Origin: Dysidea avara
Taxonomy: Eukaryota > Porifera > Demospongiae > Dictyoceratida > Dysideidae
NCBI RefSeq assembly: GCF_963678975.1
Contig: NC_089280.1
Span: 34,552,603 to 34,616,602 of the forward strand
Direction: 5' to 3'
Length of the DNA: 64,000 nucleotides
Shown here: one piece after another, positions 12,340 through 64,000 of the stretch
Numbering within the stretch: position 1 is the first letter of the stretch
Layout: every line of letters begins with the position of its first letter
Made by a program: the position numbers and the translations under genes
Notes under the pieces: generated by a model
The model's input: only the letters and a program-made list of their open reading frames with translations
Told to the model about the DNA's origin: nothing
Databases searched by the model: none

Positions 12340-15300
12340 TCAGGTTTTCTTTATTCTGTCTTTAACTTTTAGCTTACCACGCATTCCTTGACTTCTTCTC
12401 TTTGTGTTGATCTCTTGTTTTATTGATCTAATCCTGTCTTTAATTTCTGGAGGGTAATCGGAAACAGCTAGCTCTTGTAGTGTGCTATTACTTCTCAGGG
12501 CTTGTAGTATACTTAATATAGCTTCTCCACTAATGCGATTGCCCCAAATCCTCAGCCTTAGTAGTGACTTGTTGGTAGTTAGCAGTGCAGAAACATCTTC
12601 AGCCACATCATCAGTGATGGCATTGTTGCTAATGTAGAGCTCTTTCAACTTGTTAGTACCCTTCACTGCAGTGAATAGTGTTCTTGCTGCAATGAAGGAT
12701 AATGAGATATGGCTCATGTACAATATTGTTAGCATAGAGGAAGGATGAGTCAACATGGTGTAGAGCTCTTCACTTTCCCCAATTGCGTGGTTACGACTAA
12801 TATCCAACACTTCTACTTTGCACCTGAGGACAATGTCACTGATGAAGGAGGAGGATGAGCTGGTGAGGCCATTACTATTCAACCGAAACTCAGTAATAGT
12901 GACATTAGTATCATTAAGATATTTGTGAATTATATGGAGGCCACGGTCTTCGATATAACAGCAGGACAAGCTGAGCTGAACCCAGTGCTTGTGGGAAGAG
13001 GAGGTGAGGAAGAGTGACACACTCTCAAGATCAATAGCTAGAAGGGTATTTAAGTGAAGATCAATGTTTTTCTCATTAAAGATTTGTGCCTCTTCAATGG
13101 ATTTGCACATTTGATTGTCTTGTGCATCATGGAAACAGTGAAATAGTCTGAAACATTTCAGCTGTTCACGAAGGAATTTCCTGGAAATGGCAATCTTCTT
13201 GTCTCCACCAGATAGGAATTTCTTAAAGGAAGATCGTTGTCCCTTGCTGAGCATGATGTAAATGTCAAACATATTTGCATGAAGATCACTCCAGAATTGC
13301 TCGCAAAGAAGACAAAATTCTTCGTCTGGTCGAAGGTCAGTTATAATATAGTTAGCTGCTAGGTATTCCTGAATAGTTAAATGAAGGAAGTTAAATGTTG
13401 TTGTTTCTCCTGTTAGTCCAAAATGTTGTACAGCTTGTAGCAAGCCAAACCCATTAATAGCCTCAGGGGTAGCTATGACATCTGGACATGTAGTCTCGAT
13501 CTCTTCATAGGTAAAAACTAGTTGGTTGTTATTGAGTGCGTGTAATGCTAACTTGGAAAGTTGTTTAACTATTTTACTGTATGGCTCTGGCAGGTCAGCT
13601 AGCTGTTTGATGTCATTTTTGAGTGGACGACCAGATTTGGCAAGATGTCGACAGATGGTGAGACAGATGAAGTGATGGTATATACTAGAAGAATCGTTGG
13701 GAAGGGGAATACCCATTTTAAACAGGAAAAGCAGGATTACTAGGTTAAATGGCACTATGCAAAGGTAGTTGATGGTGAGATGATCTTGTAAGTAGTGGGT
13801 AATTTTTTCAATACTTTGTGGTTGTCTTTTTAAAGACTGTTCGATGTAATGATGTCGTTCATCCTCAGTGAAACCCAATATGTCCACTTTGATGGAGGCT
13901 TGTTCTCGGAGGGACACCGAAGCATGTGGACGAGATGACACCACTAATCCACAGAGAGGTAGGATGTTGCGATTTATAATCTCACCAATTAAGCTGTTTT
14001 CTCGCAGTTTTTCTGGGAATTCATCAAACCCATCAAAAAGAAAAAGCAGGTTCTTTCCATTACTTTCAAAGAGGTGATCACTGCACGCATCTGCGATTTC
14101 TTTAGCTCGCCTGTCTCCCTTGCAGAATGATAGAAGAAGGTCACTGATTGACGTAGCTTGTTGAACAATGGGGTCACGTAGACAGACTAATAGTAACAGT
14201 GTAAATTTTTGTAACAATTGTTGTTTACCCCACCTGTAAGCTATTTCACGTAACAATACAGACTTGCCAATGCCTGGTGCACCTTCGATCATAATAAATC
14301 GTGAATCTTCACATTCTTCTAGTGGAACTACTTCACATTCTTCTAGTGGAACTAAAATCTCCATCACCTCTTTGGTCACTTTGCTAACATGTGGAGTATG
14401 GTCGTCTAGCTTAGTGTGGACTAACTGTTCAGTAGCTAGTGAAGTGACATCACCTTTGTGGACTAGTTTAGCAACTTCAACAGCTTGGTCCATCCTTTGT
14501 TGTCTTTCATGATGGACCAGTAGAAGTGGAATGAAGTTGTGTGGCTGACCTGGTGGCCATGTATTCTTGTCAACCTTGAACTGTGCTTGTGCATTAGTTG
14601 TTGCCACTCTATTGGATAACATGGAGACTGCCTCAGCTCCTGTAGGACACACATCAAGGTACATCATGGAATACACTAGACACTGTACCTTTAACAGTTA
14701 ACTTGTCATGATGGACAGGCTGTACCTTGCTAGCTGCATCTTCACCAGTCACAACTATAACAATACACTAACTAGCTTGTTACTACTACAATGGTCAGTC
14801 ACCTTTCTCAGCAGCTTGATCACCGGACACAGAATCTGTCTGGATGACACTTAGTAGCTTATTCCAACTAGCAGAGGGGTCCTTCTTAAGCCATTTGCTC
14901 CACATATCATTACAGCAGGGGACACTTCTATACACATTGTCTTGTTCTATGATGTCAAGAGTTCCACTGGGTAGACCCAGTAGTGTTCCTATCACTCTCC
15001 AACGAGCAGCATAGCGTGGAGTGACGTAACTGTAGAGGTCCTTCAGTAGTGGAACACTAGTAGCTGTGCATGTAGGGAATAAACGATATGATTTAGGCTT
15101 TACAGCACTGCATACAGAAAGGTAGTTTACAATAAATGGGTGGGATAGTACAGTACTACTGAAGATCTGTTAGCTCTCTAGGCTAGCAGTCACAGAAAGG
15201 GAATTCTTAGTTTGTTTGGCTTGATGGATAAGGATAGTTCAAGATATTCCATAGTTGAGGGATTCATTTAGCTTGACAGATCAGTTGGGGAAAGGGTATT

Positions 15301-24832: not shown

Positions 24833-25053
24833 ATGAGTCAACAAATAAAACTGTATTACGATGTGATGTCACCTTATTCCTACATTGGGTTTGAGGTAAT
24901 GAAACATGTACACATGTATGGATAAATATGGTTATAGTGCACAAGATGAAATTTGATTTGTTGCTATAACTATATATTAACCAGATATTTTATAACCTTG
25001 GGTTATACCTACTATATTGGAACCTGTGTATAATGGCAGGAGCTTAAAAGCAC

Positions 25054-25276
25054 CGAAGGCACTTCATTGAAGATTTAATACAGCAAAACTGTGATTGTAA
25101 TCAAATGGCTTCAATCCAGTTACTGGATGGTGTGAATTACACTGAACAGAGTAGCAAATCAAAATCCTAAAGATACCACTGCTGCTGTCTCAGCTGCTGT
25201 TGTTAGCTGTTGAGCCTCAAGTCAACCACAGTGCATGCACACGTGCTTGCACCTTGTGGTGCTTATGAGCTCCTGA
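25054..25276. mobile_element. Short MITE with GGAGCTTA ends in intron 1 of GSTK A
   Basis: The ends CAGGAGCTTAAAAGCACC and, inverted, GGTGCTTATGAGCTCCTG bound about 220 bp. The interior matches 22,880-23,055. The word GGAGCTTATGAGC is also used inside the fold-back element at 21.2-22.5 kb, suggesting related families. Confidence 0.6.
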
Positions 25277-25460
25277 TAACAGCCACCTTGAGGTAAGAAG
25301 GTTGTCATATACAGATAGCTGTTATAGAGAAAGAAAACTCTACATAAGGTGATCAGCAGCAATTTTGTGGCTGTGACCAGTACGCAATGAAGCCAGATAG
25401 ATTATATAGTTATTCATTAAAGGTAGGAAGTGAGTATGATGAAGTTGTTCAGATCAAGGG

Positions 25461-25735
25461 ATAGCATTCACAGAATAAAACCATTTACTGGCGAGAAGTT
25501 GATATTTAAGTACAGGTTGAATGCAGAGAAGATCTCAGACCCCAGCTGTTGTGGCTTGGTGCTTGCCTGCTAGACTACATGTTGCTGGGAACTATCAAGT
25601 CATTACTGGGTCTGGATTTTTTTTTTTTTTGCCATTCCTCACATTTTAGTTACATGTTTCTGACTCCCTGTTTTTACAGGCTTTAAGCCTTCTCACAGGT
25701 CCCTAGGAGGATAGCATTCACAGAATAATACTAAG
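25461..25735 (+). mobile_element. SINE-like element with duplicated ends
   Basis: Present in copy A intron 1 and absent from the equivalent site of copy B (about 46,075). It contains a tRNA-like stretch ('gctggtgcttg...ctgggaactatcaag') followed by GGGTCTGGATTTTTTTTT. A block TAGCATTCACAGAATA occurs at both ends. A relative lies inverted at 59,385-59,640, where the promoter-like B box reads GGGATCAAGTCC. Assignment to tRNA-derived SINEs is tentative. Confidence 0.5.
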
Positions 25736-28700
25736 TAGTGTTATTTTGATCAAAGGCCAGTGTCTATTCCACCATACACAGTGATCTGACATTATGAACT
25801 CTTGTTCAGACTCTTTGAGCTTACAAATAGCGCTTTGACTCATTATGGCTTCTGTTTATTATTAGCAGTTTGAAGGCTAGTGGTAAACACCTCATACAGG
25901 CTCTGCCTTCTGTGTTCACCCTCCAGTGCCTAACTGGTAAAGTTGATAATAAAGATGAGGATGTAACTAACAGCTGAGTAACAGTGAAAATAGGTATGAC
26001 TACCCTATATGGACTTGTAATCTGGCAATGGTTGGAACCACAGATCCTGCTCCTCCGCTTATAAGACAGCAACAGCTACATGAGAGTTGAAGTTCATATG
26101 GGAAAACAGTTGGGGCCTCATGACAGTGATTGTTATACAAAGGTGACCATGGTAGTTCTACTGTATTGCCAGTTTTTCTTCCTTACTTAGGTTTTTCACC
26201 AATACAAACAGAAATGGAATCGTCATTTGTAACTATGTCCTTTTGTTTTGCCAAGGGTCAGGGAGTTAAGTAGTACGTTAATTGTATGATTATAAATAAT
26301 AGTATACCGTAGACTCTGATTATTAGGCATATGCACTATTTTTGGACTATTCTTGTTATCCTGTTTACAACTGATAGCTACTCACAATATTAATCCCTAA
26401 TACCACATGCAGCCATCTGTCCTATTAACTGCATATGCTAATATGCTTCACAGTACCACTACAATTAGTTAAAGACAACTGAATTTTTTCAGATCAGAAA
26501 TACTCTAATGGATAATATATACACACTCTATGGTTGCATGCTTTTAAGTAATATTTATCTCAGTAAAACATAACTATTCATAGTATTAACAAAGGAAAAC
26601 TTATCGATGTGAGTTTGATCCCTGAGATTGGTACATAGATGTACGTAATTACATAGCTAATGGCTAACTTGTGTATCATCATCATCTAACAGGTAACCAC
26701 TCTCATAATGTTCCATTAAAAGCCCAGCATGTAGGACAGGATGTTGCAAGACTGTATGGCTGAATATTATTGTATTCTAGTAAACCCACCTCCACCTTCA
26801 GTGAGTGTAGTGGTTTATTATCACACTAGTTAGTATTGTGTTTCTAACAATACAGAAACTTGCTGAGGCTCTGTTTGTGAAAGGTGAGACTATTACTGAT
26901 GTGCATGTACTGACTGCACTCCAGTAGCTATGTTGTGGTGGTTATACTGGAGGTTATACATGGTGTAACTACAATTCATTATTGTAGCTAGTTGGTAGCT
27001 ATGGTAGGGAGAAAAGTGTGAATTTAAAAAAGCACCATGTTAAATGGCAACACTGTGTATGCCATCAGGAACCTAAAGTGTCGATACTTCAATTTCAGTT
27101 GAATTGTAGTAGCTACATAGTAGTGTATATCATTTATGTTGAACTCACTTGTGTGTGACCAAATGCTTATCCTGCACTGTACAATGGACTCATATACTAA
27201 TAATGGTGTCATGCATATAGAGCTACTACATCATATACACTTATAAGTGATGTAGGAACACTGAGAGCCCAGCTGTTACTAACTGCAGCCAACTTGGTGT
27301 ACCCTGATAGCATTGAAGTAATTTGTAGGGAATTGTTTATGCAATTGTGGACAAAGGTATGTTAACACAAAAGTACAGATTTAAAATAATTTTAATTGAT
27401 AAAGAGAATAGGTATTTCTGATTAAGGATGTGAACCATATTGCCTTCCTAATATCATGGGTGATTCTGTTTTTATTATAATGTATCAATAGTTAATGAAA
27501 ATTATGAGTATTGAAATCTATAAAATATGGTATTGCTATCAACATTCTAAATCTGGAAAAGTCTTGTAGTGCAAGAGGTTACTTCATTGTGGTAGCTATT
27601 GCCTATAATCTTGTCCGTTCTACCACAGGATGAAGGTATCGCAAAGGATGCTAGTTTGATCCAGGTGTGTTGGTGGCTACTGGCTTGTATCATAACACAT
27701 TATGTGGTCTCCCCTCAGGCATGTGTTAGAGTTGGAATTGTGGAGGAAGAAGCTAGAAAACTACTGGCTTGTTCTAAGGAGTAAAATGTCAAAGAAATGC
27801 TGGAAGCAACAACACAGGAAGCATTTGGGTTTGGGGTGAGTCCACCTGTAATTTAGCAGCAAGGAACACTATGTATATATCTTGGCATCTCCATTTGTGA
27901 TGAGCAGGTAATGTCTTTACACCTCTGTTCAAAGCAACTAGGAATCCACCCATGCAGAGGTTGTTGATGTGAAGAAGCTGACCTGGGTTAAGAATATCTG
28001 GAAATAGGGGGTCTATAGGGCTCTTTTGCAGCTATTATACCTTTCACAATGTCTCAATAGAAACATCACAGCACATTTTGTTATCTATACATAGTACGTA
28101 CTATCTCAGTAAAAACTGTACATGTCTTGGCAGATGCATATCTGAATAATACACCATCTTACTAAACTGTATAATTATACAAAAGGTAGATGAGGCTGAC
28201 GGGTAGGATTAACTCCGGTAACAACTTTTGTTGTAAAGCTACTTCTATAGAAGTACACGTTTTGAACAATCCAAATGTGAGAGTGTGATTTTCTGTCCTC
28301 TGGACCAGAGACCGTCTGTATACTGTGTCAATGTTGTATACAACATCAGTTGTTTGCTAGTTAATTGTCCAGGTGTGAAATTGATGAGCTACATGACATA
28401 ATGATAATTTACAACATAGTTTTTGCTTTGTACACAGTAACATAATAAATAATTGCTGTATGAAGAAATGGACAAGTTATTACAAATGACTGTGTCTTTT
28501 ATTTCAATGAAGGAATCTGGTGCAGAATTTTGCTTGCACCAAGTCGCTAAATTAAATTCCTTACCAGTGCAACTGTATATAACAACAATACAACATATGT
28601 GTTGTTGACAGGCAAACCATGTGTCACTAGTACGGAGGTACCTGCCAATATAATGCTCTTAAGATTCATCATCAAATATTCTACTACATACTTTTGTTAA

Positions 28701-29754
28701 AGAGTAAGAGATATTTAGTATAAGTGTGTTTGTTTGTAGCATCAAATATAAGTGAGTGTTTCTAACATCAAATATAATGTCAAAACTTATTACAGAATCA
28801 CCAATATTATACTTTATAAAATTGCTAAATCCGATTGTTGGTCTGTTCACTAGCTGACCACAGTTGCAAAGCTAAAGTGGCTAAACAACACACTATGTTT
28901 TGCACAACAAAGTAAAATTGAAGATAAAGACAGGGCACACAGACAGCAGATGGTCTTTTGAACCCCAAATGGAATATAATATTATGAGTTTGCTATTGTG
29001 GAAACCACATCAAAGCGTTCATTTTCCATAGCATCACTTTCTTTACAGGTGAGAATATAAATACCACAACATAGTTACAAGTGCTTATGCTATCAGCTGC
29101 ACTTGTATTGGACAGAATACATGTGACCACACCCCTTAATGATTATAGTTTCCCTCTACCAGTCCATGCCAAAGTAGGGATTTTCCCACATAGCCATGTT
29201 GTAATGCCATGATTGCCATCATCCATTGTTTCACAACTTTATAGCACTTGAATTAAATACTAACTAGTGTAAAGCATTGAAGCGTGACTAGAAAGTGATA
29301 CAATGAGCACATAGTTAATTGGATTAAGGAGTAATTTTAATTCACTTTGATGTTATACCCAACACACAGAACAATATACAAGTAGATTGTTATGTGATCA
29401 GTAGACTGGAAATCACACACATTATAGATTATGTGATTGTACCAAGTACACTCATGTAATCATCAATATACAGCTACAGAATACTATAGTCCTGCCCTAT
29501 AGCTCAGTATACATGAGGATTTGCCAATACTGGATTGTAGTACATGTAGACTATGTTTGTATCTCAGTATGGTGTGCAGTATGTGTGTTTGTGTATATAT
29601 ATAGTGTGTATATGTGTGCGAGCATGAAAGCTTTAAAGCATTCACTGTAGTCAAATGCTTTATCATTTTTGTGTGTTATTAGCTACATCAACAAAAGAGG
29701 AGAATAATCTCTATAGCAACATGGACTGATAGGAATTCTTGATCTTATAGGACA

Positions 29755-45741: not shown

Positions 45742-48500
45742 ATGAGTCAACAAATAAAGCTGTATTATGATGTGATGTCACCTTATTCCTACATTGGTTT
45801 TGAGGTAACGAAACATATACACAGTTATAGTGAATAAGAATATTTAATTTGTTGCTAAATAGCTACCAGATATTTTATAGCTGAACCTGTGTAGAATGGT
45901 CACCTTCAGGCCAGAAAGCTTTTATGATGGCTATTATAGAGAAAAAACCTGCATAGGGTGGTCAGCAGCAATTTAGTGACTGTGACTAGTATGCAATGAA
46001 GGCAGCTGGATTATATAGTATTCATGCATTGAAAAGTAGGAAGCTAGTATGTCGAAGAGCTGTTCAGACCAAGAGTTCATAATACTAAGTAGTATTAATT
46101 TGATCAAATACCAATGTCTATTCAACCATACGCAGTAATGTTGTACAAGCTGTATTATGAACTTTGCTCAGACTCTTTAAACTTACAAAAAGCACACAAG
46201 GCACTTTAACTCATTTTTAATTAGCAGTTTGAAGGTGACGATGTAACTAACAACTGAGCAGTAGTGAATATAGGTATGACTGCCCTATATAGACTTGTAA
46301 TTGGACAATGGTTGGAACCACTAGTATCATGTTCCTTCACTGAAGGCACTTATGAGCTCCTGATATAAGACATGCAGTGACCACTGTATGAGAGTTGAAG
46401 TTATACATAATATTATGGTGATTCATAGGGGAATTCTTTTCTGGCTGCTATTCACATCAGATCACAATTCATATTTCTGTATGGGAAAACAGTAGGGACC
46501 TTGTGACAATGGTCATTATACAAAGGTGACCATGCATGGTGACTGTTATCATAGGTTCCACTGCATTGCTGGTTATTTTCTTCCTTAGGTTTTGCACCAA
46601 TACAAACAGAAATGGAATTTTCACTTGCAACTATGTCCTTTTGTTTTACCAAGGGTCAGGGAGTTAAGTGGTATGTTGCATTGTGTAACACACATTGAAT
46701 TATAGTATACCATAGACTCTGGTTATTAAGCGTATATGTTATTTTTGGAAGAAATTTATTAAGTGCATGATGATCACAAGGAGTTTCTGCTAAGGGAGCA
46801 TTGTTCAAGCAAACCACAGTTTCAGGACACCAGTATAGTATTCAGTCAAATAGTTTGCTTCAGGGTGGTAGTATCTGAGGAAGTATCTATTGTGGACACA
46901 TGTTCAGTGAGATATCAAGTGTGCACTGTGGCACTTCTAGTTTGGTAACAGCTTTTTATTAATTTATTCATTCATTAAGGCTTTACAGTAGGTCTGTAGG
47001 ACACCTGATCCTGTACAGTCTGATAAAAGAAGCATGTTTGAAAAGTTGCAGAGAAAAAAATCCATGACTGCACCTGGGCAGCTTCACAACCAGATTTTGC
47101 TGCCATTCTAGGTAGCATGAACTCGGTTTGCAGCAGTAATTTCAACTGGAGTTATGTCCTTAGCAAACTACTGTCCAGCAGTACAAGTATACCTGTGCAC
47201 TCAACAAGTTTTTATTTTATTTTTATTTTATTTTTTATTTTTATTTTTTTGTGCACTCAACAGGTAATAATTATGTGCTTATAGTCGCCATGTGCAGCTA
47301 TAAAATAACCAGAGTCTATATAAAGTTTTCTAGATGGCACTGTACTTAGCTACAGTAAATAAAGTTTGCATGTATATTATCAGTTGCAGTTAGCAATTCA
47401 TGTTATCTATATTTACTCCACAGAGATTTCATGTTTAATCTGACATGTGGATTTGTTACAATAATATTCTCAGATTGTTGCAATAATATTCTCAATAGCA
47501 CCTTGATGCTTTGTTTTGAAATAAGTCAAGTGATTAGAACCAGCGTTGAAACCGGGTCGGGTCGTCCGGGTCATATTTTCTCCGGGTCATCCGGGTCTGA
47601 CCCGGTTTACAATTTATCCGGGTCTGACCCGGATTGGATCACGTGAGAAACGAAATTGTTCGTTTGACGACGTGGAACATATAAAGGGTAGTTGGAAAAG
47701 GCGGATACGGTCGGACGCGGACACGGACGCGGACATTTTCAAAAAGCACTTTTACATTTATGTAACAGTTATTTTTCATACCTAATGCTGTTTTTACAGC
47801 AGTCTTCGCTTCGAGACCCAGGCGTCGATCCTTTCATAGCGCTTATCCATTTATAAAGCACTGCACAGCATGCCAAAGACCATAATGGTGTTGTACACAT
47901 GTTCTAAAGTCTAATACAGAGTTATATAGTTGTAGAGATTAGCTTGTATTCCCCATGCAACTTAGCTTAGCAGGCCAAATCCACAATCTTACGCCTTTTA
48001 GTATAAGGCGCAAGCGCTTATACCGAGTGTTGAAGATTTCAAGGACCTGGCCCACGAGATTAAGTTGGGACATGCTAGATTAATCTCTGTGACTCTGAAT
48101 TAGATTTCTAGAGCACGTATACAACACTGTAATGGTCTTTAGAGTGCTAGTCTATCCTTCGCACGTGCGCTTATAAATGGATAAGCGCTATGAAAAGATC
48201 GACGCCTGGGTCTGGAGGCGAAGACTGCTGTAAAAACAGCGTTAGGTATGAAAATTAACTGTTATATAAATGTAAAAGTCCTTTTTGAAAATGTCTGTGT
48301 CCGTGTCCGCGTCCGACCGTACCCGCCTTTTCCAATTACCCACATAGAAACGCTATCGCGTAGCTCTTTCGTGAGCCACGCCTACTTATCGCATTACCAA
48401 CAACATATGCTCAGCCACGCCTATTTGTTAGTAAGTGCAGTATGTAGCACGAAACTGAGGGTATCTATGGTGAGGGGTAGCTATTGTCAGTAGGTGAAGA

Positions 48501-48535
<35 letters not shown>

Positions 48536-51323
48536 GTCTTCAACCTACAGCTAGGCTGAAGTTTTCAATATTTACTCAACACGAATCGAACGCTCAAAAT
48601 GTAGACTCGTTCGCTAACCCGAGACTAGCCGAAACACGTCTCGGCTTTAATTAATCCGGGTCACATCCGGGTCAGTGGGTCATCCGGGTCAGCAGTAGTG
48701 ACCCGGTTTCAACGTTGATTAGAACTAAATATTAGTATTACACTTGTTAGTCAAGGTCCCTTGACAAAAATCTGATTAACTAAATTGTGTGGTGTGATTC
48801 TACACATGTCTGAATTATCAATTGGTGTTACCATACTGTGGTTGCTTAGCGATGGTTGTTAGGTAACCACTGCTAAAGTAAAAGGTTATTTTACTGCCAT
48901 AGCTAGGTAATGGTTGCTAAGTGTGATTAGCTTTTTGCTGTAGTGAACTACTGTTACAGTTGTTATGGTAGGATGGCTAGGAAGGAAATAGTCACCTTGC
49001 ACTATTTTACTCCTTACTGTTTACAACGCTCACACCATTAATCCCGAATATCACAGCCAGCTGTCCTATTTGCTACATATACTAATATGCATCACAGTAC
49101 CATGAAAACATGACAACAGAATTTTTTCAGATTAAATATTTCCATTATGGATGCACTCTACAGTTAAATTGCCCTTAAGTAACAAAATTCATCATAATAT
49201 CAAGAGTTTATAATGTGGGAGGGCTCCCACAATATACATTTATTAAGAAAGGAAACTTGCATCCCAGCATGTTACCAGCTGATGTGAATTTGATCCCTGG
49301 ATCGGTACATAGTTAATAACTTATGTAATTAGTTGTGTGTATGATATTTTGGTTAACTTGTGTATCATCATCATCTACTTTAACAGGTAACCACTCTCAA
49401 AATGTTCCACTAAAAGCCCAGTATGTAGGACAGGATGTTGCAAGACTGGCTGAATATTATTGTATTCCATTAAACCCACCTCCACCTTCAGTGAGTGTAG
49501 TGGTCTATTATCACACTACTAGTTAGTGTTGTGTTTCTAACCATACAGAAACTTGCTGAGGCTTTGTTTGTGAAAGGTGAGACTATTATGTGCATGTACT
49601 CAGTGTAGCTATGTTGTGGTGGTTACACTGGAGGGTTATACATGGTAGAACTATTATCTGATTGGACTTGTAGCTAGGAGGAAAGTGGGATTTTTTCAAT
49701 AAAAAGTGGCACTGATATCATCAGGAACTTTATTATAAGTTCCAATACTTCAATCATTTCAATTGAATTATAGTAGTTACATAGTAATGTGCATCATTTA
49801 TGTTATGCTCGCTTGTGTGTGGCTAATGCTTACTGTGGGCTGTACATTTGAACTTGTGTACTATTAATGATGTCATATAGCCACTACACCATGTACTCTT
49901 AAGTGTCTAATCTCTGTGATGTAGGGACGCTGAGAGCTCAGCTATTACTAACTGCAGCCAACTTGGAGTATCCTGATAGTGTTGAGGCAATATCTAGGAA
50001 ATTGTTTATGCGGTTGTGGGCAAAGGTATGTTAACACAAAAGTATAGATTAAGGATGTGAATTGTATTGCGGATAATTATGTTTTTATTATAATGTATCA
50101 GTATTGATGAAATTATGATGTCACAGTTATAAATACGGTATTGCTAAAAATATTCTTAATCTGGTTATCTGGACAAAAAGTTTGTAGTGCAAGTAATCTG
50201 GCTATCTGGTTCTATTATTGTAATATTGCCTATAATCTTGTCCATTCTTCACTACTACAGGATGAAGATATCACAGAAGATGCTAGCTTGATCCAAGTGT
50301 GTTGGTGGCTACTGACTTGTATCATAACACATTATGGTTTCCCCTCAGGCATGTGTTAAAGCTGGAATTGTGAAGGAAGAAGCTAGAAAACTGCTGGCTC
50401 GTTCTAAGGATCAAAATGTCAAAGAAAAGTTGGAAGCAACAACACAGGAAGCATTTGGGTTTGGGGTGAGTCCGCCTGTAATAATACAGCAAGGAGTATA
50501 GTATATGTATATCTCTTGCATGGGCTCACCAATTTACCTGCAGGTAATACCTTTATACCTGTGTTCAGGAATACATCCAGAAGATGTTGATGTGAGGGGC
50601 TGGCCTGGGTTTAGAATATGTTTCTGGAAATAGGGTATATTGGCTATCTATAACACGCACTATCTCGATAAAAACTTTCATGGCGAAGTTTACATATCTG
50701 AATAATATATAGTATTACTAAACTGTAGGTATAGAGAGTAGGGTTAAATCCTAGATAAGGATGATGACTTTTGTTGTAAAACTACTTTTAAGAGCACACA
50801 TTTTGAACAAGAGTGTGATTTCAGACACCATCCATACACTGTGACAAGTTTAGGTCAGCTGTTTGCTAGTTAACTGTCCAGGTGTGAAATTGGTAGGCTA
50901 CATGACATAATGATAATTTACGACAACATAAGTATTGCTTTCTACACACTAACACAGTATAATTACTGTATGAGGAAATGGACAAATTATTACAAATGGT
51001 TGTATGTTTCAATGAAGGCATTTGGTGCTCCATTTATGGTAGTGATGAAGGACAAGCCAGAAGTATTCTGGGGTCAAGACAGGATTGAACTAATGGGTCA
51101 TACTCTTGGTAAGTCTTGTACGTGATGTCTGTCTGTCAGTGTGTTAGTCCACTACACAGGATTGAAGTGGGAAGGACCATTAGTGATAAAAACAAACCAC
51201 AACTCTTCCTCCCAAAGTGTGGATAAGTCTAGAGATTCCACTGTCTTCACTTCACTTACAAAATGGATGATACTGCTTGTCCCAATCATTATACTTATTG
51301 TACTTCAATGGCTCAATTATTGA
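45742..51323 (+). CDS. GSTK B: glutathione S-transferase kappa with C-terminal membrane anchor (260 aa)
   Basis: Kappa-class GST/DsbA-like protein; the family conjugates glutathione in mitochondria and peroxisomes. Exons: 45,742-45,804, 46,589-46,667, 49,387-49,490, 49,559-49,586, 49,925-50,025, 50,261-50,296, 50,349-50,465, 51,018-51,108, 51,160-51,323. All introns are GT-AG with consistent phases and no internal stop. Exon 1 carries YYDVMSPYSYIGFE with the active-site SPYS. Later motifs are RLAEYYCIPLNP, LLLTAANLEYPDS, DEDITEDASLIQ, EATTQEAFGFG, AFGAPFMVV and FWGQDRIELMGHTLG, all matching animal GSTK1 in order. Human GSTK1 has 226 aa; the excess is a C-terminal tail with WMILLVPIIILIVLQWL before Asn-Tyr-stop. 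The long intron 2 holds the hAT/Mutator nest (47,541-48,717). Confidence 0.92.
47217..47252 (+). repeat. (TTTTA)n low-complexity tract
   Basis: T-rich pentamer tract in intron 2 of GSTK B. Confidence 0.85.
47686..48341. mobile_element. Mutator-like MITE nested in the hAT element
   Basis: Inverted arms of about 170 bp begin GGGTAGTTGGAAAAGGCGG and include GGTCGGACGCGGACACGGAC and GACCCAGGCGTCGATC. The 9-bp flanks ACATATAAA (47,677-47,685) and ACATAGAAA (48,342-48,350) match at 8 of 9 positions. No transposase. Confidence 0.85.
48496..48541. repeat. GAAGACC-poly(T)-GGTCTTC cassette
   Basis: About 32 T residues between GAAGACC and its inverse GGTCTTC. The same arrangement (poly(A) between GAAGACC and GGTC) occurs inside the MITEs at 23,254 and 43,289. 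Confidence 0.85.
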
Positions 51324-52898
51324 TACGGGCACTAATTCAGTTCTTGGATTTCAGAACAATGATTTTTTCCTTATATGATTTTGCTAGTGTACAGAGAAAT
51401 GTCATTAATCTCACATTTTGTTGCATGGTTAATTGGCAGAATTATATTTGTTGATAAACCATATCAGCAGACTGATAATTTGGTTGATGGGTTCCACATT
51501 CACTCACAACGACATTGGACCAATAACAGGATTGGCAGAATTTTGGTTGCACCAAGTCTCTCAATTAAATTCCCTGCCATTTCAACCACATATAACAACA
51601 TTAGCTATGTGTTGTGGATTATAAAACAGGCAAATGTCAGTAGCACAAAGGTTCCCTCCAAACTGATGCTCTTATGATTCAACATCAAATATTCTACTAC
51701 ATGATATCTTGTTAAAAAGTCTTAGTGAGTGTTTCTAACATCAAATAATATAGTATCAAAACTTAGAAAAAACTTACAGAATCACAGATAGCTATTACTT
51801 TTTAAAAATTGCCGATTCTGATTGTTGGTCTGTCCGCTAGCTGAGCACAGTTGTAAAACCTATAGTGGCTATACAGCTCATTGTACAGTTACTATCTTAT
51901 GTCTAGCACAACAAAGTAGAATTGAAGATAAAGACAAGGCACAGAGAGCAATTGGTCTTTTGAACCCCAAATGGAATATAATATTATGAGTTTGCTATTG
52001 TGGAAACCACATCAAGGCGTTCATTTTCCATACCAACACTTTCTTTACTGACGAGAATATAAATATCACAAAATAGTTCTAAGTGCTTATGCTATCAGTT
52101 GCACTTGTTATTATTGGTTTGCTGGAGAAAACAGAATGCATGTGACCACACCCCTTAATGATTATACTATCCCTCTACCAGTCCATGTCAAAGTAGGGAT
52201 TTTCCCACATAGCCATGTTGTAATACCATTATCCATTGTTTCACAACTTTATAGCACTTGAATTTATACTCTTTAAATACTGACATGTAAAGCATTGAAG
52301 TGTGACTAGAAAGTGATACAATGAACACATAGTTAATTGGGTTAAGGAGTAATTTTAATTCACTTTGAAGCTACATATACGAGTACCTGACACACAGAAC
52401 AATGCATGTAGATTGTTATGTAATCAGTAGACTGGAAATCACACACATTATAGATTATGTGATTGTACTATGTACACTCATGTAACCATTAAGTGTTGTA
52501 GTACAGCGTCTTGTAGCTACAGAATAAATCCTGCCCTTATACATGAGGATTTGCCAATACTGGCTAGTCACAATATAAGTAATGCACCAGTGATACACTG
52601 GATTAGTATACCTGTGTAAACAGCAGCCGGCTTTGTGTGCATATGCATGGGTGTGTGTAGTATGTGTGTTTGTGTGTAAAGTATGTGTGTGTATGTGTGT
52701 GTATGTGTGTATCTCAGTATGGTGTGTAATATGTGTGTTTGTATGTATATATAGTATATATAGTGTGTGTATGTGTGCGAGCATGATTTAAAAGCTTTAA
52801 AGCATTCACTGTAGTCAGCTGCTTTATCACTTCTGTGTGTTATTACATCGAGAATAATCTCTATAGCAACATGGACTGAGAGGAAGTCTTGATCTTAT

Positions 52899-52957
52899 AG
52901 GACAGCTACTATACAGTAGAACCTTTCTGAGAGGTTCTACTGTAGAGTAGCGAAGAA
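52899..52957. repeat. Hairpin downstream of GSTK B
   Basis: Counterpart of 29,755-29,816: CAGTAGAACCTTTCTGAGAG continuing to its inverse, here with a more degraded right arm. Confidence 0.65.
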
Positions 52958-53264
52958 TTCTTAGAAGACCCTCCCTGTAAAGGATGCTGTATGTACATTT
53001 AACTTCCTTATAAAGGATTGTTCTGATGCCATTTTACTTCTGTAAAGACAACCAATTGAGACTTCATCAAATCAGTCAGTCACAAAAGTGACTGTTAAAT
53101 ATTCCACTGTATGTTATGTAGTAGTGTTTGATAGGAGTGGTGACTGTACTGTTTATGGAATGTGTGTAGCGGTGTACTTGCAATGTAAACTTTCAAACCT
53201 CACTACATTTCCAGTAACAATTTAAATAACTAATTACTATAACAAGTATACTAAATTAGTAGAA

Positions 53265-53384
53265 CCTCACCCAATTACTCAGTTGGCTATATATATACTG
53301 CTCTCCTCTTTGTTTGGTCATTTAATTGTGTCAGAGAATTTGGTAGGGAATCAACCAAACCTGTGTCTACATGTTGTACTGAAA
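53265..53384 (+). promoter_or_regulatory. Conserved 5' flank before the outer first exon of GSTK C
   Basis: It shares 'ctgctctcctctttgtttggtc', 'gtgtcagagaat', 'tagggaatcaacc' and the GAAAATG start context with copies A, B and D. Confidence 0.5.
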
Positions 53385-53447
53385 ATGACTCAACAAATTA
53401 AACTGTACTATGATGTGATGTCACCATATTCCTGGATAGGCTTTGAG
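53385..53447 (+). CDS. Outer alternative first exon of GSTK C
   Basis: A 63-bp open exon begins with ATG and encodes YYDVMSPYSWIGFE, ending at a GTAAGT donor in the same phase as the other first exons. It is nearly identical to the first exon of copy D (60,246-60,308), apart from Asn for Asp there. It can splice directly to exon 2 at 54,649. A second full first exon lies at 54,319-54,381. Either two promoters are used or one exon is a relic. Confidence 0.7.
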
Positions 53448-54318
53448 GTAAGTAGATGCACATTATGAGAAGTACATAAAAGAATCTTGTAGCTATTACT
53501 AGCTGTGGTATGAATTGCTTACATGTATAAGATTTGTGTTCATATTCAAAATTGTTTCAGTCAGTTGTAGCTAGCTTTAAGTAGTCAGTTTTGTGAAGTA
53601 AGGATTACTGGATTATTAGATTTAAAAAGTTGCTGCAAACATTTTTTGATATAAAAGCATACAAGTAGTACTGAGCTAGCATTCATGTGTAGCTATAATT
53701 ATTTTATGTAACTGTTGTGTGTAACACATTATAGAGCTAAGTATGTACATGGCTATGTGTAACACTAACACTTTTCAAAAATAAAAGCAAAGTTGTTTGA
53801 TTGTATTACCCTAACAGTAGTCAAGTGTGACACCATTTTCTACTAGACTGCAAATACAACAACAACACTACATAATTATAAGCGGAGCCATACAACAGCC
53901 CAAACAAAGCAGAAAACAAGCACAAGAGGTAATTATCTACAAATCGCCGGAGGTTTTTCCTTTAACTTGAAATGTGCATATAAAAACATACAGTGCATGT
54001 GTTTATATCTTCAAAGCTCACTCTGTTACGTACACTATACATATAGCTATATGTTTTAAAAAGATGACGTGAGGTACCGTGATGACATATGGTCAGTGCA
54101 TTTTCAGTGGAAGAACACGGGACATGCATAAGCTACGTAACATGTGCATGTACACATTAATTTAACGCCACACATTGATATCTATCAACACTACAAGTAT
54201 CAAAACATGTCACAATATGTACTGTGTGTGGAGGTGTTAATATTGTTAGTAGTGTGAATTTTTGTTGTGACACTTGAGGCTTGAGTGAGTGACTAGTACT
54301 TACTTGTGTTTGCTGAAA

Positions 54319-57300
54319 ATGAGCAAGTATATCCAACTGTACTATGATGTTATGTCACCATATTCCTGGATAGGTTTTGAGGTAAATATACAATAACTAG
54401 TTTGTGCGTAATGAGAAATATATAGCAGACCTGACACATTAGGTAAAGAAGCTTACCTATACTAGCTACGTACATCCATTTCATGCATACTCGATGGTGC
54501 ACATGATGAAGAGTGATTTGTTTTGTAACTAAGTAACAAGTGCCACTGTTGGAGTACCTAGCTAACTATGAAGCAAGCAGCAATGGCATGACATTTTAAT
54601 CTATGTATTAGTAGTGGTATATGATAAGCCGTATTATTTCTTTCTTAGGTTCTCCATCGATACAAACAAAAATGGGACCTTGATTTGCAACTGTGTCCTT
54701 TCCAGATCCTTAAAGTCAGGGAGCAAAGTAAGTTTGAATTATTGTGCACAGAACTGCACACGTGTGCATACTATACCAGAAGCCATACACACATACACAT
54801 TACTGACCACAGCATGCTATACACTGCATAGATCAAAGCTGAATAGCACAAAGTACAGTTAACTGCAAGGAAACAATACACTGTTAACTTAAGTTGGTCT
54901 GTATACTAAATACTTTACATGCAACTTAATGATTGGCTTGATACACATACGTATGTTTAGTATACTGTGAAGTATCAAGCACCACCAGCACCTTTTGTCA
55001 TAAAAACTACACTACACAAATTTGTGTAAAATCATTGGAATATAGGAAATAGAGATTGCTGGGAAAAAAAAAAAAGCCAAGAAACAAGAGCCAAACAAGT
55101 CAACATGTTAAACTGCTCTAGGACTACAATGGAGCCTAACACTTAGAGATCTGTGTGTTATATTTTCAAGTGTTAGGGCTTTACAACATTTGACATGCCC
55201 CATTGTAGTCCTAGAGCTGTTCAACATGTTGACTTGTTTGGCTCTTGTTTCTTGCTTTTTTTTCCGGGAATCTCTATATTTTCTATACTATTATTTTCAC
55301 ACTGTAAGCCATTTCTTGCACACGTATCAATCTGTTGGTCACATTAGCAATTAATTTGTGTAATTTTTTGCACATTAACAACATATCAGTGAACTGAGTG
55401 TCAAGAATCCTTAACACTAAGTCAAGTCACTAGGTCTAAGTCCTTGTAGGTTAGGTAATCCTAAGGCTGCAGCACATGTTGCTGTTAGACCTTCAGTGCT
55501 GGTCACTGTAAAGCACTAATTATATAACCAAGTACTAAGAATAATACGAAACGCGGTTAAAATTACGTAATAAATAAATAAATAAATAATTAAATAATTA
55601 ATAATTAATGTTTGAGAAAACTACGAGGCCTAGAGACATGAACTAACCGGGGATAGATTCGCCTGTGAATGAAGGCACAAACGTATAATCGTCGCTCCTG
55701 TTTGTGCTGATGACTTGACCATACGTGTAATTCTATATAACGCCCAGTACCACACCCTTGCTTAATTACTTACATATTGCGCGAAGAAGATTAGTGATGC
55801 CCGTGCAGGAGAGCCAGAAGCCACTTGTGTAAACAAGAAGATTACAGAAGCCACTTGTGTAAACAAGAAGATTACAAGTAAGTTTTTATGTCTGTAACAT
55901 CTCAAGTCTCCATGCCAGCTGCCAGTGGATTCATTCATGTAAATAAACAATACAAGAATTAAAACATTAAACTGACATATGCCACGCTCTTTACAATAAG
56001 CTTACAGTTACATATAAAATACAAGTAAACAATTTTGTCTTGTGCAGCTGGCATGGCGAACTTTCTTTGTGTTGGTGTCAGGCAATTCAATACGTGCTTA
56101 ATCTTTTTTGCCTTCACCTGGCGTAGCTACTAGGCTCTAGTGGCTTGGCTGTCTTCCTTTATCTGGTTCATCTGGCTTGCATACGCCTACAGCATTGTGT
56201 AGCTATCTCCTGAAAGTTGTGTATGCATAACTATGGTGTGTCACCCATCACTGTGCCATTGCTACATCACTGATGAACCTTACTTAGCTCTAGTTGATGT
56301 TGATATGCATTGCTGTATATTGGCTAATAATTTTTATCTGCATGGTGATGTTGCCTATAATGTATTGCTGCATACAATACTGCAATAATGTATAGTTCTC
56401 TCCTGTATGTTTTGTATACATATACTTTGTACACATCACTGTGCCATTTATACCACACCAATGATGTACTGGCACTTAGCTACTGGTGGCCTTTAGTTAC
56501 GATGCCACTATAGTGTTATATCTGTCACTACTGTGACATATTGAGTTGATTTGGGGATAATGCATTCACCACCTAATAGCCTCACCGGGGGGCTGTCACG
56601 TTGGTGTATGTACTTGGTTGTATGTGACGCGGTCCTAGTAATAATAATAATAATAATAACATATAATAATTATCTCATTGTACACTAACAGAATATTGCC
56701 TGAATCATGGTTTGGTTACATTCTGTTATTAGGTAGCAATCTTCCTAAAAGTAAAGAAAAGGCAATTCATGTCGGATATGATATCGCAAGACTGGCTAAG
56801 TTTTACAACATACCACTAAAGCCACCATCGGTAGGTGAATAATTTCAGTAATTTGTATAGTACTAATTGTTGTTAATTCCTCACAGAATCCTACAGAGAC
56901 TTTGATGGTAAAAGGTAAGTTAGTTGTGATATAATGCACATTAGCCACCTCTATCTATATTAGGGACAACACAGGCTCAGCAACTGCTCACTGCAGCAAA
57001 TTTGGAGTTGCCGGATAAAGTTGAGGCAATTTCTAGGGAGCTATGGATGAGAGTGTGGTCTAGGGTGGGTTGATTACACAATGCTGTAGATAATGGGCTA
57101 ATAAGAAAAAGGAGAACTAAAATTTCTAACACATTGTTGAGTTCTATTTGCATTCACTATCCATCTGTATCAGTACAGGTAGAGGTGCAATGGAATTTAT
57201 AGGAGTTAGCTGGCTATCACTGTAGTGCTTGCCCTGTGTATAGCTATATAGATGACTAACTGTGTTGAGTATAATAGACTGAGCTAGTTCAGCCAGCCAG

Positions 57301-58248
57301 CTGTGTATATATGAGGGTTGGTCAGTTTCTCAGTACACCTAGTGGTTCTTTAGTAGCTAATGATATTATCTTTCTAGGATGAAGACATTACAGAAGATAC
57401 TAGTTTGATCCAGGTGTGATATTGTGCTATTACGTTATGTGCAGAAGTATCAGATCCCATATGTAGGCATGTGTCAAAATTGGAATATCAAATGAAAATT
57501 CTAAGAAACTGTTGGCCCGTTCTAAGGATCAAGATGTCATTAATAAGTTGGAAGCTACCACACAGGAAGCGTTTAACTATGGAGTAAGTCATGACCATTT
57601 GTATATAGCAACAGGTACTAGTTACACACTCCAAATTATGGTAAAGTTAAGATTTGTTTAGTGGACTGCAATAATGTGAGATATTAAAGGAGTCAAGAAA
57701 TCAATGTGACTTCTTTACTGGTCCTTCAGATAACCATCATCATCTGATTGGCCGGTAATGATTATCAACAATACATTAGCACAGAGTACTATCCATAAAA
57801 GAAAATTGAAACATGCTAATAAAAGCACCACTCAGAAAGGATGTAGATAGTTATACCCTAACTGATCTGTATGTGTCGTGTTCAGGTGCCATATGTGCAT
57901 GATCACCTTATGTCTGTCTGTCGTTCCATCATTAAAGGCATTTGGTGCTCCATTTATGGTAGTGGGGAAGGATGATCCACAAATATTCTGGGGCTCAGAC
58001 AGGATTGAACTAATTGGCTACACACTTGGTAAGTATCCTGCATAAGTCTGTCTGTCAGTTAGTCAGTCTTTCATTATGTTGTAGGACTGAAGTGGGAAGG
58101 ACCACATGTGACAAAAACAAACCACAATTCTTCTTTCCAAAGTGTAGAGAGATCTAAAGATTCCATTGTCTTCACTTCACTTACAAAATGGATGATACTA
58201 CTTGTCCCAATCATTATACTTATTGTACTTCAATGGCTCAATTATTGA
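54319..58248 (+). CDS. GSTK C: glutathione S-transferase kappa with C-terminal membrane anchor (258 aa)
   Basis: Second intact kappa-class GST. Exons: 54,319-54,381 (or 53,385-53,447), 54,649-54,727, 56,733-56,830, 56,887-56,914, 56,964-57,064, 57,378-57,413, 57,467-57,583, 57,938-58,028, 58,085-58,248. GT-AG introns and phases agree throughout. Motifs in order: YYDVMSPYSWIGFE (SPYSW active site as in GSTK1), VLHRYKQKWDLDLQLCPF, GYDIARLAKFYNIPLKPP, SRELWMRVWSR followed by DEDITEDTSLIQ (very close to mammalian GSTK1), EATTQEAFNYGAFGAPFMVV, and FWGSDRIELIGYTLG at the glutathione-binding end. The last exon encodes a polar, Ser-rich linker and then WMILLVPIIILIVLQWL-NY-stop. The inner first exon begins MSKYIQLYY and lacks the conserved 5' flank of the other copies. 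Intron 2 is long and carries a palindromic MITE and SINE debris. Confidence 0.92.
55062..55275. mobile_element. Palindromic MITE in GSTK C intron 2
   Basis: Arms AAACAAGTCAACATGTT and CTAGGACTACAATGG pair with their inverses. An outer pair 'gaaatagagattgctggg' and its inverse extends beyond. The same element sits at the same site in copy D (61,570-61,815), so it entered before C and D separated. Confidence 0.75.
55448..55528 (+). mobile_element. SINE 3' fragment in GSTK C intron 2
   Basis: Contains 'taggttaggtaatcc', 'ggctgcagcacatgttgctg' and 'agaccttcagtgctgg', as in the SINE at 42,423. The 5' half is absent. Copy D lacks about 1.4 kb here. Confidence 0.75.
55798..55878 (+). repeat. Two 30-bp tandem repeats
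   Basis: Two consecutive copies of AGAAGCCACTTGTGTAAACA plus AGAAGATTAC. In the C-only part of intron 2. Confidence 0.85.
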
Positions 58249-60245: not shown

Positions 60246-63200
60246 ATGACTCAACAAATTAAACTGTACTATAATGTGATGTCACCATATTCCTGGATAG
60301 GCTTTGAGGTAAGTAGATGCACATTATGAGAAGTACATAAAAGAATCTTGTAGCTATTACTAGCTGTGGTATGAATTGCTTACATGTGGAAGTTTTGTGT
60401 TCATATTCAAAATTGTTTCAGCCAGATGTAGCTAGCTTTAAGTAGTCAGTTTTGTGAAGTAAGGATTACTGAATTATTAGATTAAAAAAGTTGCTGCAAA
60501 CATTTTTTGATATAAAAGCATACAAGTAGTACTGAGCTATATAGTTCATGTGTAGCTATAATTATTTTATGTAACTGTTGTGTGTAACACATTATAGAGC
60601 TAAGTATGTACATGGTGCTATGTGTAACACTAACACTTTTCAAAAATAAAAGCAAAATTGTTTGATTGTATTACCCTAACAGTAGTCAAGTGTGACACCA
60701 TTTTCTACTAGACTGCAAATACAACAACAACACTACATAATTATAAGCGGAGCCATACAACAGCCCAAACAAAGCAGAAAACAAGCACAAGAGGTAATTA
60801 TCTACAAATCACCGGAGGTTTTTCCTTTAACTTGAAATGTGCATATAAAAACATACAGTGCATGCAATTGTATCTTCAAAGTTCACTCTATTAGACTATA
60901 TATGCTAACGGATAATAGCTATATGTTTTAAAAAGATGACATGAGGTACCATGATGACATATGGTCAATACATTTACAGTGAAAAAACACGGGACATGTA
61001 TAAGTTCAACATGTTGACTTGTTGAGAAAAGCAGAGAGTAGCGTAGTCAGTTTTCACCTACTACTGAGTAACATATGGATGACTAACTATATGAAGCAGG
61101 CAGCAGCATGGCATTTTAATCTACATATTAGCAGTGGTATATGATAAGCCGTATTATTTCTTTCTTAGGTTCTCCATCGATACAAACAAAAATGGGACCT
61201 TCATTTGCAACTGTGTCCTTTCCAGATCCTTAAAGTCAGGGAACAAAGTAAGTTTGAATTATTGTGACACAGAACTGCACATGTGTGCATATTATACCAG
61301 AAGCCATACGCACATACACATTGCTGACCACAGCATGCTATACACTGCATAGATCAAAGCTGAATAGCACAAAGTTCAGTTAACTGCAAGGAAACAATAC
61401 ACTGTTAACTTTGGTCTGTACAATACTGTGCATACAACTTAATGATTGGCTTGAACACACATATGTATGTTTAGTATACTGCGAAGTATCAAGCACAACC
61501 AGCACCTTTTGTTTTATATCATTGTCATGGTATTCATAAATAAACTACACAAACTAGCGTAAAAATAAATGGAATATGGGAAATAGAAATCACTGCAAAA
61601 AAAACAACCAAAAACCCCAAGAAACAAGACTGAGTCAAACAAGTCAACATGTTGAATTGCTCAGCTCTAGGACTACAATGGAGCATGTCAAATGCTAACA
61701 GATCTGTGTGTGTGACAATTCAAAGTGCTAGGTTTGACATGCTGTCATGCCCAATTGTAGTCCTAGAGCAGTTCAACATACTGACTTGTTTGTCTTTTTT
61801 CCAACAATCTCTATATTTCCTATACTTTGATTATTTTTATCAGGTAACAATCTTCCTAAAAGTAAAGAAAAAGCAATTCATGTCGGATATGATATCACAA
61901 GACTGGCTAAGTTTTACAACATACCACTAAAGCCACCATCGGTAGGTGAATAATTTCAGTAATTTGTATAGTACTAATTGTTGTTAATTCCTCACAGAAT
62001 CCTACAGAGACTTTGATGGTAAAAGGTGTGATATAATGCACATTAGCCACCTCTATCTATATTAGGGACAATACAGGCTCAGCGACTTGCTCACTGCAGC
62101 AAATTTGGAGTTGCCGGATAAAGTTGAGGCAATTTCTTGGATGAGAGTGTGGTCTAGGGTGGGTTGATTACACAGTACTGTAGATAATGGACTAATAAGA
62201 AAATGGAGAACTAAAATTTCTAACGCATTATTGAGCTCTATTTGCATTCACCGTCCATCTGTAGGTATATAGCTAGAGGAGTGATGACATTCATAGGAGT
62301 TAATAGCTATCACTGTAATGCTTGTCCCGTGGCTATACAGACGACTAACTGTGTTGAGTATATTAGCTATAGACTGAGCTAGTTCAGTTTCTCAGTATTT
62401 AACTTTGTTTGGCCTGAAATAGAGGTTCTATAAAATTAGTAGTTAAATTATGATATATCTTTCTAGGATGAAGACATTACAGAAGATACTAGCTTGCTAT
62501 TACACTATGTGCTGAAGTCTCAGATCCCCCATGTAGGCATGTGTCAAAATTGGAATATCAAATGAAAAATCTAAGAAACTGTTGGCTCGTTGTAAAAATC
62601 AAGATGTCATTAATAAGTTGAAAGCAACCGCACAGGAAGCCTTTAAGTATGGAGTAAGTGCCTGTATGGGCTAAATTATTTAAAATTTAAGATTTGTTTA
62701 GTGGACTGCTATAATGTGAGACATTAAAGAAGTCTCAATGTATGAGAGAGCAAGTCTATTGCTATATAACCTGCAAGCAGCAGGTGGTTGGGTCATGTGA
62801 TATACATATTTGGATAACTAACACATGTGCTGATAATGGCAAGGCTCATGATTCACCAGTTTAACATCATGGTGCCACCAACAAGTTCAGATTGTGGGTA
62901 GCCATCTCTTGAGATAATTATTATGTAATACACTGCTGCCCTCTCCATGACGTTCAATAAATCAGTGTTACTTCTTTACTGGTCCTTACCAGATAACCAT
63001 CATCTGTTGGACCACTCAGAAAGATGGCTACACCACAATACAACTGATATGTGTTATTCACCACTTTATTTCAATGTTGTTTCATCACTAAAGGTATTTG
63101 GTGCTCCATTTATGGTGGTGGGGAAGGATAATCCACAAAATATAATATTCTGGGGCTCAGACAGGAATGAATTGATTGGCTACACACTTGGTAAGTATCC

Positions 63201-63281
63201 TGTGCAAGTCAGTCTGTCAGTTGGTTAGTACATTACGTTATGGGGCTGAAGCGGGAAGGACCACTTGTGGAACTGGCAAAG
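60246..63281 (+). pseudogene. GSTK copy D, decayed glutathione S-transferase kappa gene
   Basis: Recent duplicate of copy C. Exon equivalents: 60,246-60,308, 61,169-61,247, 61,844-61,941, 61,998-62,025, 62,066-62,158, 62,467-about 62,494, 62,537-62,653, 63,094-63,190, and a stub at 63,240-63,281. Damage: Asn replaces Asp in YYDVMSP. Exon 5 has an extra base after CTCAGCGACTT and a 9-bp loss. A deletion removes the end of exon 6 and its donor. Exon 8 gains six bases (QNIIFWG). Exon 9 lacks the AG acceptor and breaks off, so the membrane tail is gone. Introns are kept and long stretches are almost identical to C. Confidence 0.9.
61570..61815. mobile_element. Palindromic MITE in GSTK D intron 2
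   Basis: Orthologous in position to 55,062-55,275 in copy C (CAAGTCAACATGTTGAA and CTAGGACTACAATGG arms). Shared by duplication, not by independent insertion. Confidence 0.75.
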
Positions 63282-64000
63282 TGTTGAATTATTAAGCTCA
63301 CTGAAACATTAACGCTTGTAGCAGCGTTGAACTGAGAACAGAGTAATAGCTACACTCAGTAACCCTCTACAATAACTATAACTCCAAGGTACTCCAATAA
63401 TAGCACAGTTGATGGAACCATTGAACTGTCACTGCACAATGTTGTAGATGACAAAACTTGATGAACTAGTATTATAAACGGTAACTTCTAATATTTGCTC
63501 AATAGCCGTGTAGTAAAGGCTTACTAATCCCAAGAGCTTATAATATTAGGAAGTAAGGGCTGACACTGCCTATATGAAATACTATCTCTGCTTTTTGGTG
63601 GCCTCAAATACTGACAACGCAGACATATAATACATTATTTTGCATCTAGCAACAGTTGACATAGTAATCCATCTGGACTATATATGCTACATGAACACAT
63701 GATCATGACACAACAACCAACTGCTCTATTAGAGGAATGTCACTGCTTTAAGGTTGAATGTTCTATTAGAGTGTTTTACAATTCCCTCAGTGCCTGAATA
63801 TGTTTTGTCATTTATGGTAACTAGTTTCTAAAAGAGAACAGTCTGCTACATAAGATAGTGGTCAGCTAATGCTACGTTGTAGTAGATTATTTCAGGGTCA
63901 TTCTATCATCCACACTGTTTGTAATGTCATTGACTCATTCTAGCTAGCCTAATGCTGTCCCCAGCTTGGCAATTATATAAGCTAGCTAGCTACACCTGCC
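63282..64000. other. No gene recognised
   Basis: Right edge of the window. It contains CTCTATTAGAGG at 63,724 and TTCTATTAGAGTG at 63,761, the dispersed motif discussed in the findings. No ORF or paired repeat is supported. Confidence 0.45.

Follow-up and report, generated by a model that had tools for sequence, protein, structure and literature searches.

Kappa-class glutathione transferases (GSTKs) are described as mitochondrial and peroxisomal enzymes, with a location of the mammalian enzyme at the ER proposed and unsettled (PMC10295636). According to the same source, mammalian GSTK1 is found in both mitochondria and peroxisomes and bears a PTS1. Membrane-anchored proteins with a GST fold are represented by GDAP1 and GDAP1L1, in which basic residues near the anchor matter for mitochondrial targeting and for which PMC10452860 gives mixed reports on glutathione conjugation.

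Here, we analyzed a window of 64,000 nt of Dysidea avara DNA (C9:34552603-34616602) together with the genome (550.8 Mb searched, 108 contigs). A cluster of five GSTK copies, named Z, A, B, C and D, starts 8.9 kb upstream of the window (Table 1). In B and C, exon 9 extends the GSTK core with a polar linker and a hydrophobic end, and judging from their sequences we consider it reasonably probable that both are tail-anchored kappa-class GSTs with a cytosolic domain, the ancestral end having been replaced within exon 9.

Table 1. Positions of the GSTK copies and of their tail-related features (window coordinates unless a contig or locus is named).
Feature	Position	Strand	Description
Copy Z, intact untailed GSTK	L012:670-9226 = C9:34543669-34552225		found by flank search with B and C
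Copy A, broken sister of B	24833..29466	+	tailed-type 3' flank kept from 28522
Gene B, tailed GSTK	45742..51323	+	9 exons, 261 aa; spliced frame and human GSTK1 match
Gene B, exons 1-5	45742-45804, 46589-46670, 49387-49490, 49549-49576, 49925-50025	+	
Gene B, exons 6-9	50261-50296, 50349-50465, 51018-51108, 51160-51323	+	
Exon 9 of B	51160..51323	+	GLKWEGP core end, 24-residue polar linker, putative anchor, stop
Codons of the 22 terminal residues LTKWMILLVPIIILIVLQWLNY in B	51255..51320	+	against C, a single synonymous change and no non-synonymous one
Near 3' flank of B	51324..51763	+	80-88% identical to C per 100-column block
Alternative first exon of C (MTQQIKL...)	53385..53447	+	like exon 1 of B and D
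Gene C, tailed GSTK	54319..58248	+	9 exons, 258 aa; spliced frame and human GSTK1 match
Gene C, exons 1-5	54319-54381, 54649-54727, 56733-56830, 56887-56914, 56964-57064	+	
Gene C, exons 6-9	57378-57413, 57467-57583, 57938-58028, 58085-58248	+	
Codons of the same 22 terminal residues in C	58180..58245	+	
Copy D, broken sister of C	60246..63287	+	exon 9 remnant GLKREGPLVELAKC-stop, Z-type untailed end

B and C each form a single open frame across their nine exons, with GT-AG introns. Exon 2 of B has two candidate donors three bases apart; the downstream donor, which ends the exon at 46670, has its counterpart in use in the Z model. With the extra Gly that it supplies, the human GSTK1 match improves from 166.1 to 171.1 bits, and B was therefore taken as a protein of 261 aa. 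Two candidate first exons, 0.9 kb apart (53385-53447 and 54319-54381) and each followed by a GT donor, were observed for C, and alternative starts of this gene are possible. Intron 2 of B carries a 171-nt inverted repeat (47686-47856/48171-48341, 94% complementary), which looks like a foldback element. Retention of intron 8 in either gene would yield a protein that stops without the tail.

The original prediction that B and C are kappa-class GSTs was borne out, as the top PDB matches for B, C and Z alike were human and rat GSTK, the SPYS motif is present and the core is complete. In the PDB search, human GSTK1 was matched at 171.1 bits by B (E 4e-49), at 179.5 bits by C (E 6.8e-52) and at 221.2 bits by Z, the highest value among the three intact copies, and the GSTK matches of B and C far exceeded those to HCCA isomerases. 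Pfam placed DSBA as the sole domain on B and C, with the DsbA-type thioredoxin fold spanning the whole core, and an NCBIfam search of B, C and Z assigned no family. All three proteins retain SPYS, with the active-site Ser in SxxS instead of CxxC. Ser16 of human GSTK1 is called critical in PMC10295636; a literature search on GSH-binding residues gave nothing relevant, and no residue beyond Ser16 is claimed here. Core dN and dS were 0.198 and 1.154 for Z-B, 0.241 and 0.921 for Z-C, and 0.202 and 0.965 for B-C, indicating that the GSTK cores of Z, B and C are under constraint.

The last 22 residues of B and C, LTKWMILLVPIIILIVLQWLNY, are identical and are directly followed by the stop codon. An extension of about 30 residues had been predicted for both proteins; the extension is real and its size had been underestimated, since B and C each continue for 47 residues past the conserved WEGP, compared with 8 residues beyond the core end in Z and 9 in the human chain past its aligned GP. 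The human chain itself, with 226 residues and no tail, agrees with the earlier description of GSTK1 as a 226-aa protein without a membrane segment. The top 19-residue Kyte-Doolittle mean (2.27) lies inside the LTKWMILLVPIIILIVLQWLNY stretch of both proteins, and ahead of their last 30 residues the best such mean falls within the core and reaches 1.04 in B and 0.57 in C. The 17-residue WMILLVPIIILIVLQWL has a GRAVY of 2.64 (2.21 for a 20-residue version), and the next two residues are uncharged.

This strong hydrophobic segment, the only one of its kind in either protein, ends two residues short of the C-terminus and consists of 17 mostly apolar residues with a Trp at either side and a Lys ahead. 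An apolar stretch flanked by Trp with Lys ahead is the usual anatomy of a membrane anchor. We regard it as quite improbable that the hydrophobic end acts as a protein-protein or chaperone contact or as a degron: just two residues lie beyond the segment, as such a role might have it, but the length of the mostly apolar run, its bounding Trp residues and the preceding Lys speak for an anchor. Both proteins end in LNY; they carry no C-terminal PTS1 and do not have the soluble, PTS1-type form of animal GSTKs, to which Z conforms by sequence and which we do not take to define the kappa class. AlphaFold2 models, built from B and C only (two sequences, with B in its 260-aa version lacking the added exon 2 Gly), showed a terminal helix at residues 234-259 at a mean pLDDT of 38.3, too poor for a fold search.

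The remaining copies of the cluster give the state of this end outside B and C. Z, located 8.9 to 0.4 kb upstream of the window, has nine exons and a clean 221-aa frame ending in GVKWEGPQVELAAKI-stop; it is untailed, its final residues are VELAAKI, and it is the sole intact untailed GSTK found in the genome search. A is identical to B at 484 of 531 aligned nt in exons 1-7 and is broken by in-frame stops and by four extra bases in exon 3; nothing in it matched exons 8 and 9. D is identical to C at 564 of 604 aligned nt (exons 1-8) and has lost the donor past exon 6 and the AG of the exon 9 acceptor; it also has eight bases fewer in exon 5 and six more in exon 8. D and Z have GGAACTGGCA and the place of the stop in common, directly past the conserved core; besides the end of D, GGAACTGGCA has no further occurrence within the window. 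Past this point, the sequence of B and C is unrelated to that of Z and D. As no tail is present in Z, in D or in the human and rat chains, that of B and C is a derived state. An ancient tail, since lost from Z and D, appears highly improbable; although the evidence comes from five copies in one genome, which leaves some room for such losses, the GGAACTGGCA end with its common stop place right past the core and the untailed human and rat chains argue against them.

By analogy, the AKI end of Z is a probable PTS1 peroxisome-import tag. AKI suffices for peroxisomal import in Histoplasma (PMC13343957), and a 1991 title cited there (reference 58) calls it essential for a Candida tropicalis enzyme; PMC545800 had nothing further to say on AKI.

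We compared B and C along their length. In exons 1-8, dS and dN were 0.95 and 0.22, compared with 0.21 and 0.07 in exon 9 (6.8 synonymous changes in 36.5 sites, 8.2 non-synonymous changes in 125.5 sites), and nucleotide differences amounted to 161/612 in exons 1-8 versus 11/138 in the tail (P ~1e-6). The near 3' flank, up to 51763, is identical at 368 of 430 nt versus 451 of 613 in exons 1-8 (in these exon and flank identities, exons 2 and 8 are within 3 bases of the final model). Farther out the likeness becomes patchy, with 53-54% identity at 51764-51913, 92-93% at 51914-52171 and at most 69% thereafter. The introns are 46-67% identical in forced alignments of seven of the eight (intron 2 left out), which upholds the predicted divergence of introns; the predicted divergence of the UTRs is contradicted by the near 3' flank, 80-88% identical over those 430 nt. 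The low dS of exon 9 together with the similar flank thus indicates that the 3' end of B and C was probably copied between the paralogues, with gene conversion or unequal exchange as the likely cause of the younger shared end.

As to the donor, the flank of A is 91.5% identical to that of C over 272 nt and then 75.3% over 441 nt, and 75.7% identical to that of B over 840 nt. Because the flank of A is closer to C over the 272 nt, the end of C may have been derived from A or a relative of A, a direction of copying that we infer. Over the initial 26 nt of exon 9, where C would switch from one type of end to the other, C has three mismatches with D and four with B. Two stretches downstream of B (52004-52045 and 52182-52262) have further copies, 74-91% identical, in several flank loci and are probably dispersed repeats. 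Elsewhere in the cluster, exon 5 of Z (L012:2753-2853) is 86% identical to that of C (56964-57064), with 74 nt at 94.6%; exon 6 (36 nt) is likewise 86% identical and exons 2-4 are 54-68% identical. The likeness of exon 5 possibly reflects another exchange between copies.

Within this younger end, the codons of the putative anchor (last 69 nt of exon 9) differ between B and C at 1 of 69 nt and at none of 22 residues, as against 14/95 in the remaining part of exon 9 (P 0.004) and 62/430 in the near flank (P 0.0008). The linker part changes like the near flank (14/95 versus 62/430, P 1.0). Compared with the well-kept farther flank patch (223/241 identical), the difference of the anchor is unclear (P 0.09); synonymous change in the anchor is likewise scarce (1 in 15 sites), and the low anchor change could be explained by a patch of recent conversion. 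Over the whole of exon 9, a synonymous excess was obtained at P 0.03 (6.8 rounded to 7), and all of these figures are small numbers from one gene pair.

The original prediction had relied on the conservation of the segment despite divergence elsewhere. The anchor codons do stand out, but the 3' end is shared including its flank, and the linker evolves about as the flank does. As B and C share a younger 3' end that includes the flank, the conservation argument is weakened: the similarity of B and C would mostly reflect the later common origin of their 3' ends, and two tailed copies with one younger 3' end amount to nearly one observation. The tail-anchor reading itself retains its anatomical support, namely the segment, the linker and the complete core.

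These comparisons bear on whether the tail is neutral debris, i.e. the loss of the old end through a rearrangement, a frame that ran by chance into formerly non-coding DNA, an end then spread by exchange, and genes B and C that are little used. We evaluated the chance component with 100,000 second-order Markov sequences built from the window, of which 6.3% were open for at least 40 codons, 0.30% carried a stretch with a mean of at least 2.2 ahead of the first stop and 0.064% combined 40-52 open codons with a stretch of mean at least 2.2. Two of the five copies are broken, no genomic source of the new sequence was found, and the flank shares the similarity of exon 9 with linker changes like those of the flank, all of which is compatible with debris. 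However, the cores are constrained, all splice sites of B and C are intact, a chance extension with such a segment arises in about 0.3% of the Markov null, and the anchor codons are the least changed, so that we consider debris unlikely. The anchor-like tail carried by two of the three intact GSTKs is real and derived, and more probably functional than not.

Regarding the source of the tail, local alignments of the 3' flanks of Z and D with the tail plus flank of B and C stayed within shuffled controls for all four pairs, and either capture of an exon that has since diverged or birth from non-coding DNA may have supplied it. Genome searches with exon 9 DNA and with the tail peptide hit B and C and no other place, and the search with tail plus flank DNA added A (flank part); no source of the tail sequence elsewhere in the genome was found by these DNA and peptide searches. 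The whole-genome search with Z, in which the best candidates were scored, gave 30 matches at E <=10 among the matches listed, 28 of them in C9:34543669-34615794, which is this cluster; the remaining two (E 1.05 and 1.75) were taken as noise. So was the one tblastn match at E <=0.05 (27% identity, E 0.044) in 23 further loci, which together cover 230 kb to the left and right and overlap the window by 0.6 kb. A long tandem-like array (L014:2700-4670) showed many overlapping matches to the region just past Z. PF01323 matched four other places in the genome and none in the cluster, probably because the exons are short; these four loci showed no match to B or C or a weak one (E >=0.03).

In collections of bacteria, archaea and viruses, which are uninformative on other animals, no confirmed relative was found for the 54-residue tail (9 pattern hits in viral_contigs, 96 in genome_contigs) or for the whole C protein (23 in genome_contigs, 3 in viral_contigs), and exon 9 DNA had no match in phages. 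Among the matches listed in titles and abstracts of open-licence PubMed Central, no tail- or membrane-anchored kappa GST was found. Elsewhere in the window, the minus strand at 12340-14697 contains a 785-aa open frame with a NACHT match (4.1e-25) and weak leucine-rich-repeat matches, a predicted NLR-type gene.

Taken together, these results suggest a model in which the ancestral C-terminus, probably a PTS1 end like the AKI of Z, would have given way, within exon 9, to a polar linker followed by a single hydrophobic segment. Judged by the flank of A, the new end would have been born in the A/B lineage and then copied into C. B and C would thereby lose import via a C-terminal PTS1 and would most likely enter the membrane post-translationally by a tail anchor, so that the GSTK (DsbA-like) domain would stay in the cytosol and Asn-Tyr alone would reach the opposite side. 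There the two proteins, which we infer to be transcribed and catalytically active, could conjugate glutathione or reduce disulfides near membrane lipids or proteins.

The original prediction had named the outer mitochondrial, peroxisomal or ER membrane, a choice that can be narrowed in favor of the ER as the most likely membrane, with the outer mitochondrial membrane next. According to Costello et al. (PMC5450235), low tail charge with a hydrophobic segment favors the ER; the peroxisome is favored by a highly charged tail, and the mitochondrion by lower hydrophobicity of the segment. The GRAVY of 2.2-2.6 and the uncharged two-residue tail of B and C would therefore favor the ER under these rules, which derive from mammals and yeast; in the same source, high hydrophobicity is not exclusive to ER proteins in mammals and the classifier misplaces TOMM22. 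Anchoring on the outer mitochondrial or peroxisomal membrane in the manner of GDAP1 seems rather unlikely. The presence of mammalian GSTK1 in both organelles (PMC10295636), GDAP1 as a tail-anchored outer-membrane protein of GST fold (PMC2659752) and the short apolar core of 17 residues are in its favor, but B and C have high hydrophobicity and no basic residues past the anchor, and GDAP1 is itself directed to the ER once its tail is removed (PMC5450235).

Overall, the changed last exon suggests a shift of GSTK from the organelle interior onto a membrane. The fuller scenario, in which a peroxisomal-type GSTK exchanged its last 8 codons for linker and anchor and copying of this end made a second membrane GSTK, is put forward tentatively, at somewhat less than an even chance. 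If true, the cluster would hold an enzyme retargeted from the organelle interior to the membrane surface with the intact untailed Z still adjacent, and a naturally anchored GSTK paralogue would demonstrate that this domain is able to function at membranes. The set of Z, A, B, C and D would then record the exchange of a targeting end via one altered exon.

Compared with mammalian GSTK1 (DsbA-L; PDB 1yzx, 3rpn, 1r4w), residues 3-216 of B align to human residues 6-219, with SPYS in common, and the difference lies past the aligned GP, where the 226-residue human enzyme has 9 residues with a PTS1 and B and C have 47 with the putative anchor. The ER and peroxisomal forms of FALDH are splice forms of one gene. 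FALDH resembles B and C as a tail-anchored enzyme in which the C-terminal end sets ER versus peroxisome (PMC5450235), but it is an unrelated enzyme with two forms that are not paralogues. Metaxin 1 has a GST-like domain and a predicted transmembrane helix near its C-terminus; it differs from B and C as a component of the mitochondrial outer membrane whose GSH site is predicted to be blocked, and it does not belong to the kappa class (PMC10452860). GDAP1 and GDAP1L1 share with the proposed B and C topology a GST-fold domain on the cytosolic side and a C-terminal anchor (PMC2659752, PMC10452860), built however on the cytosolic-GST fold and not on the DsbA/kappa fold of B and C.
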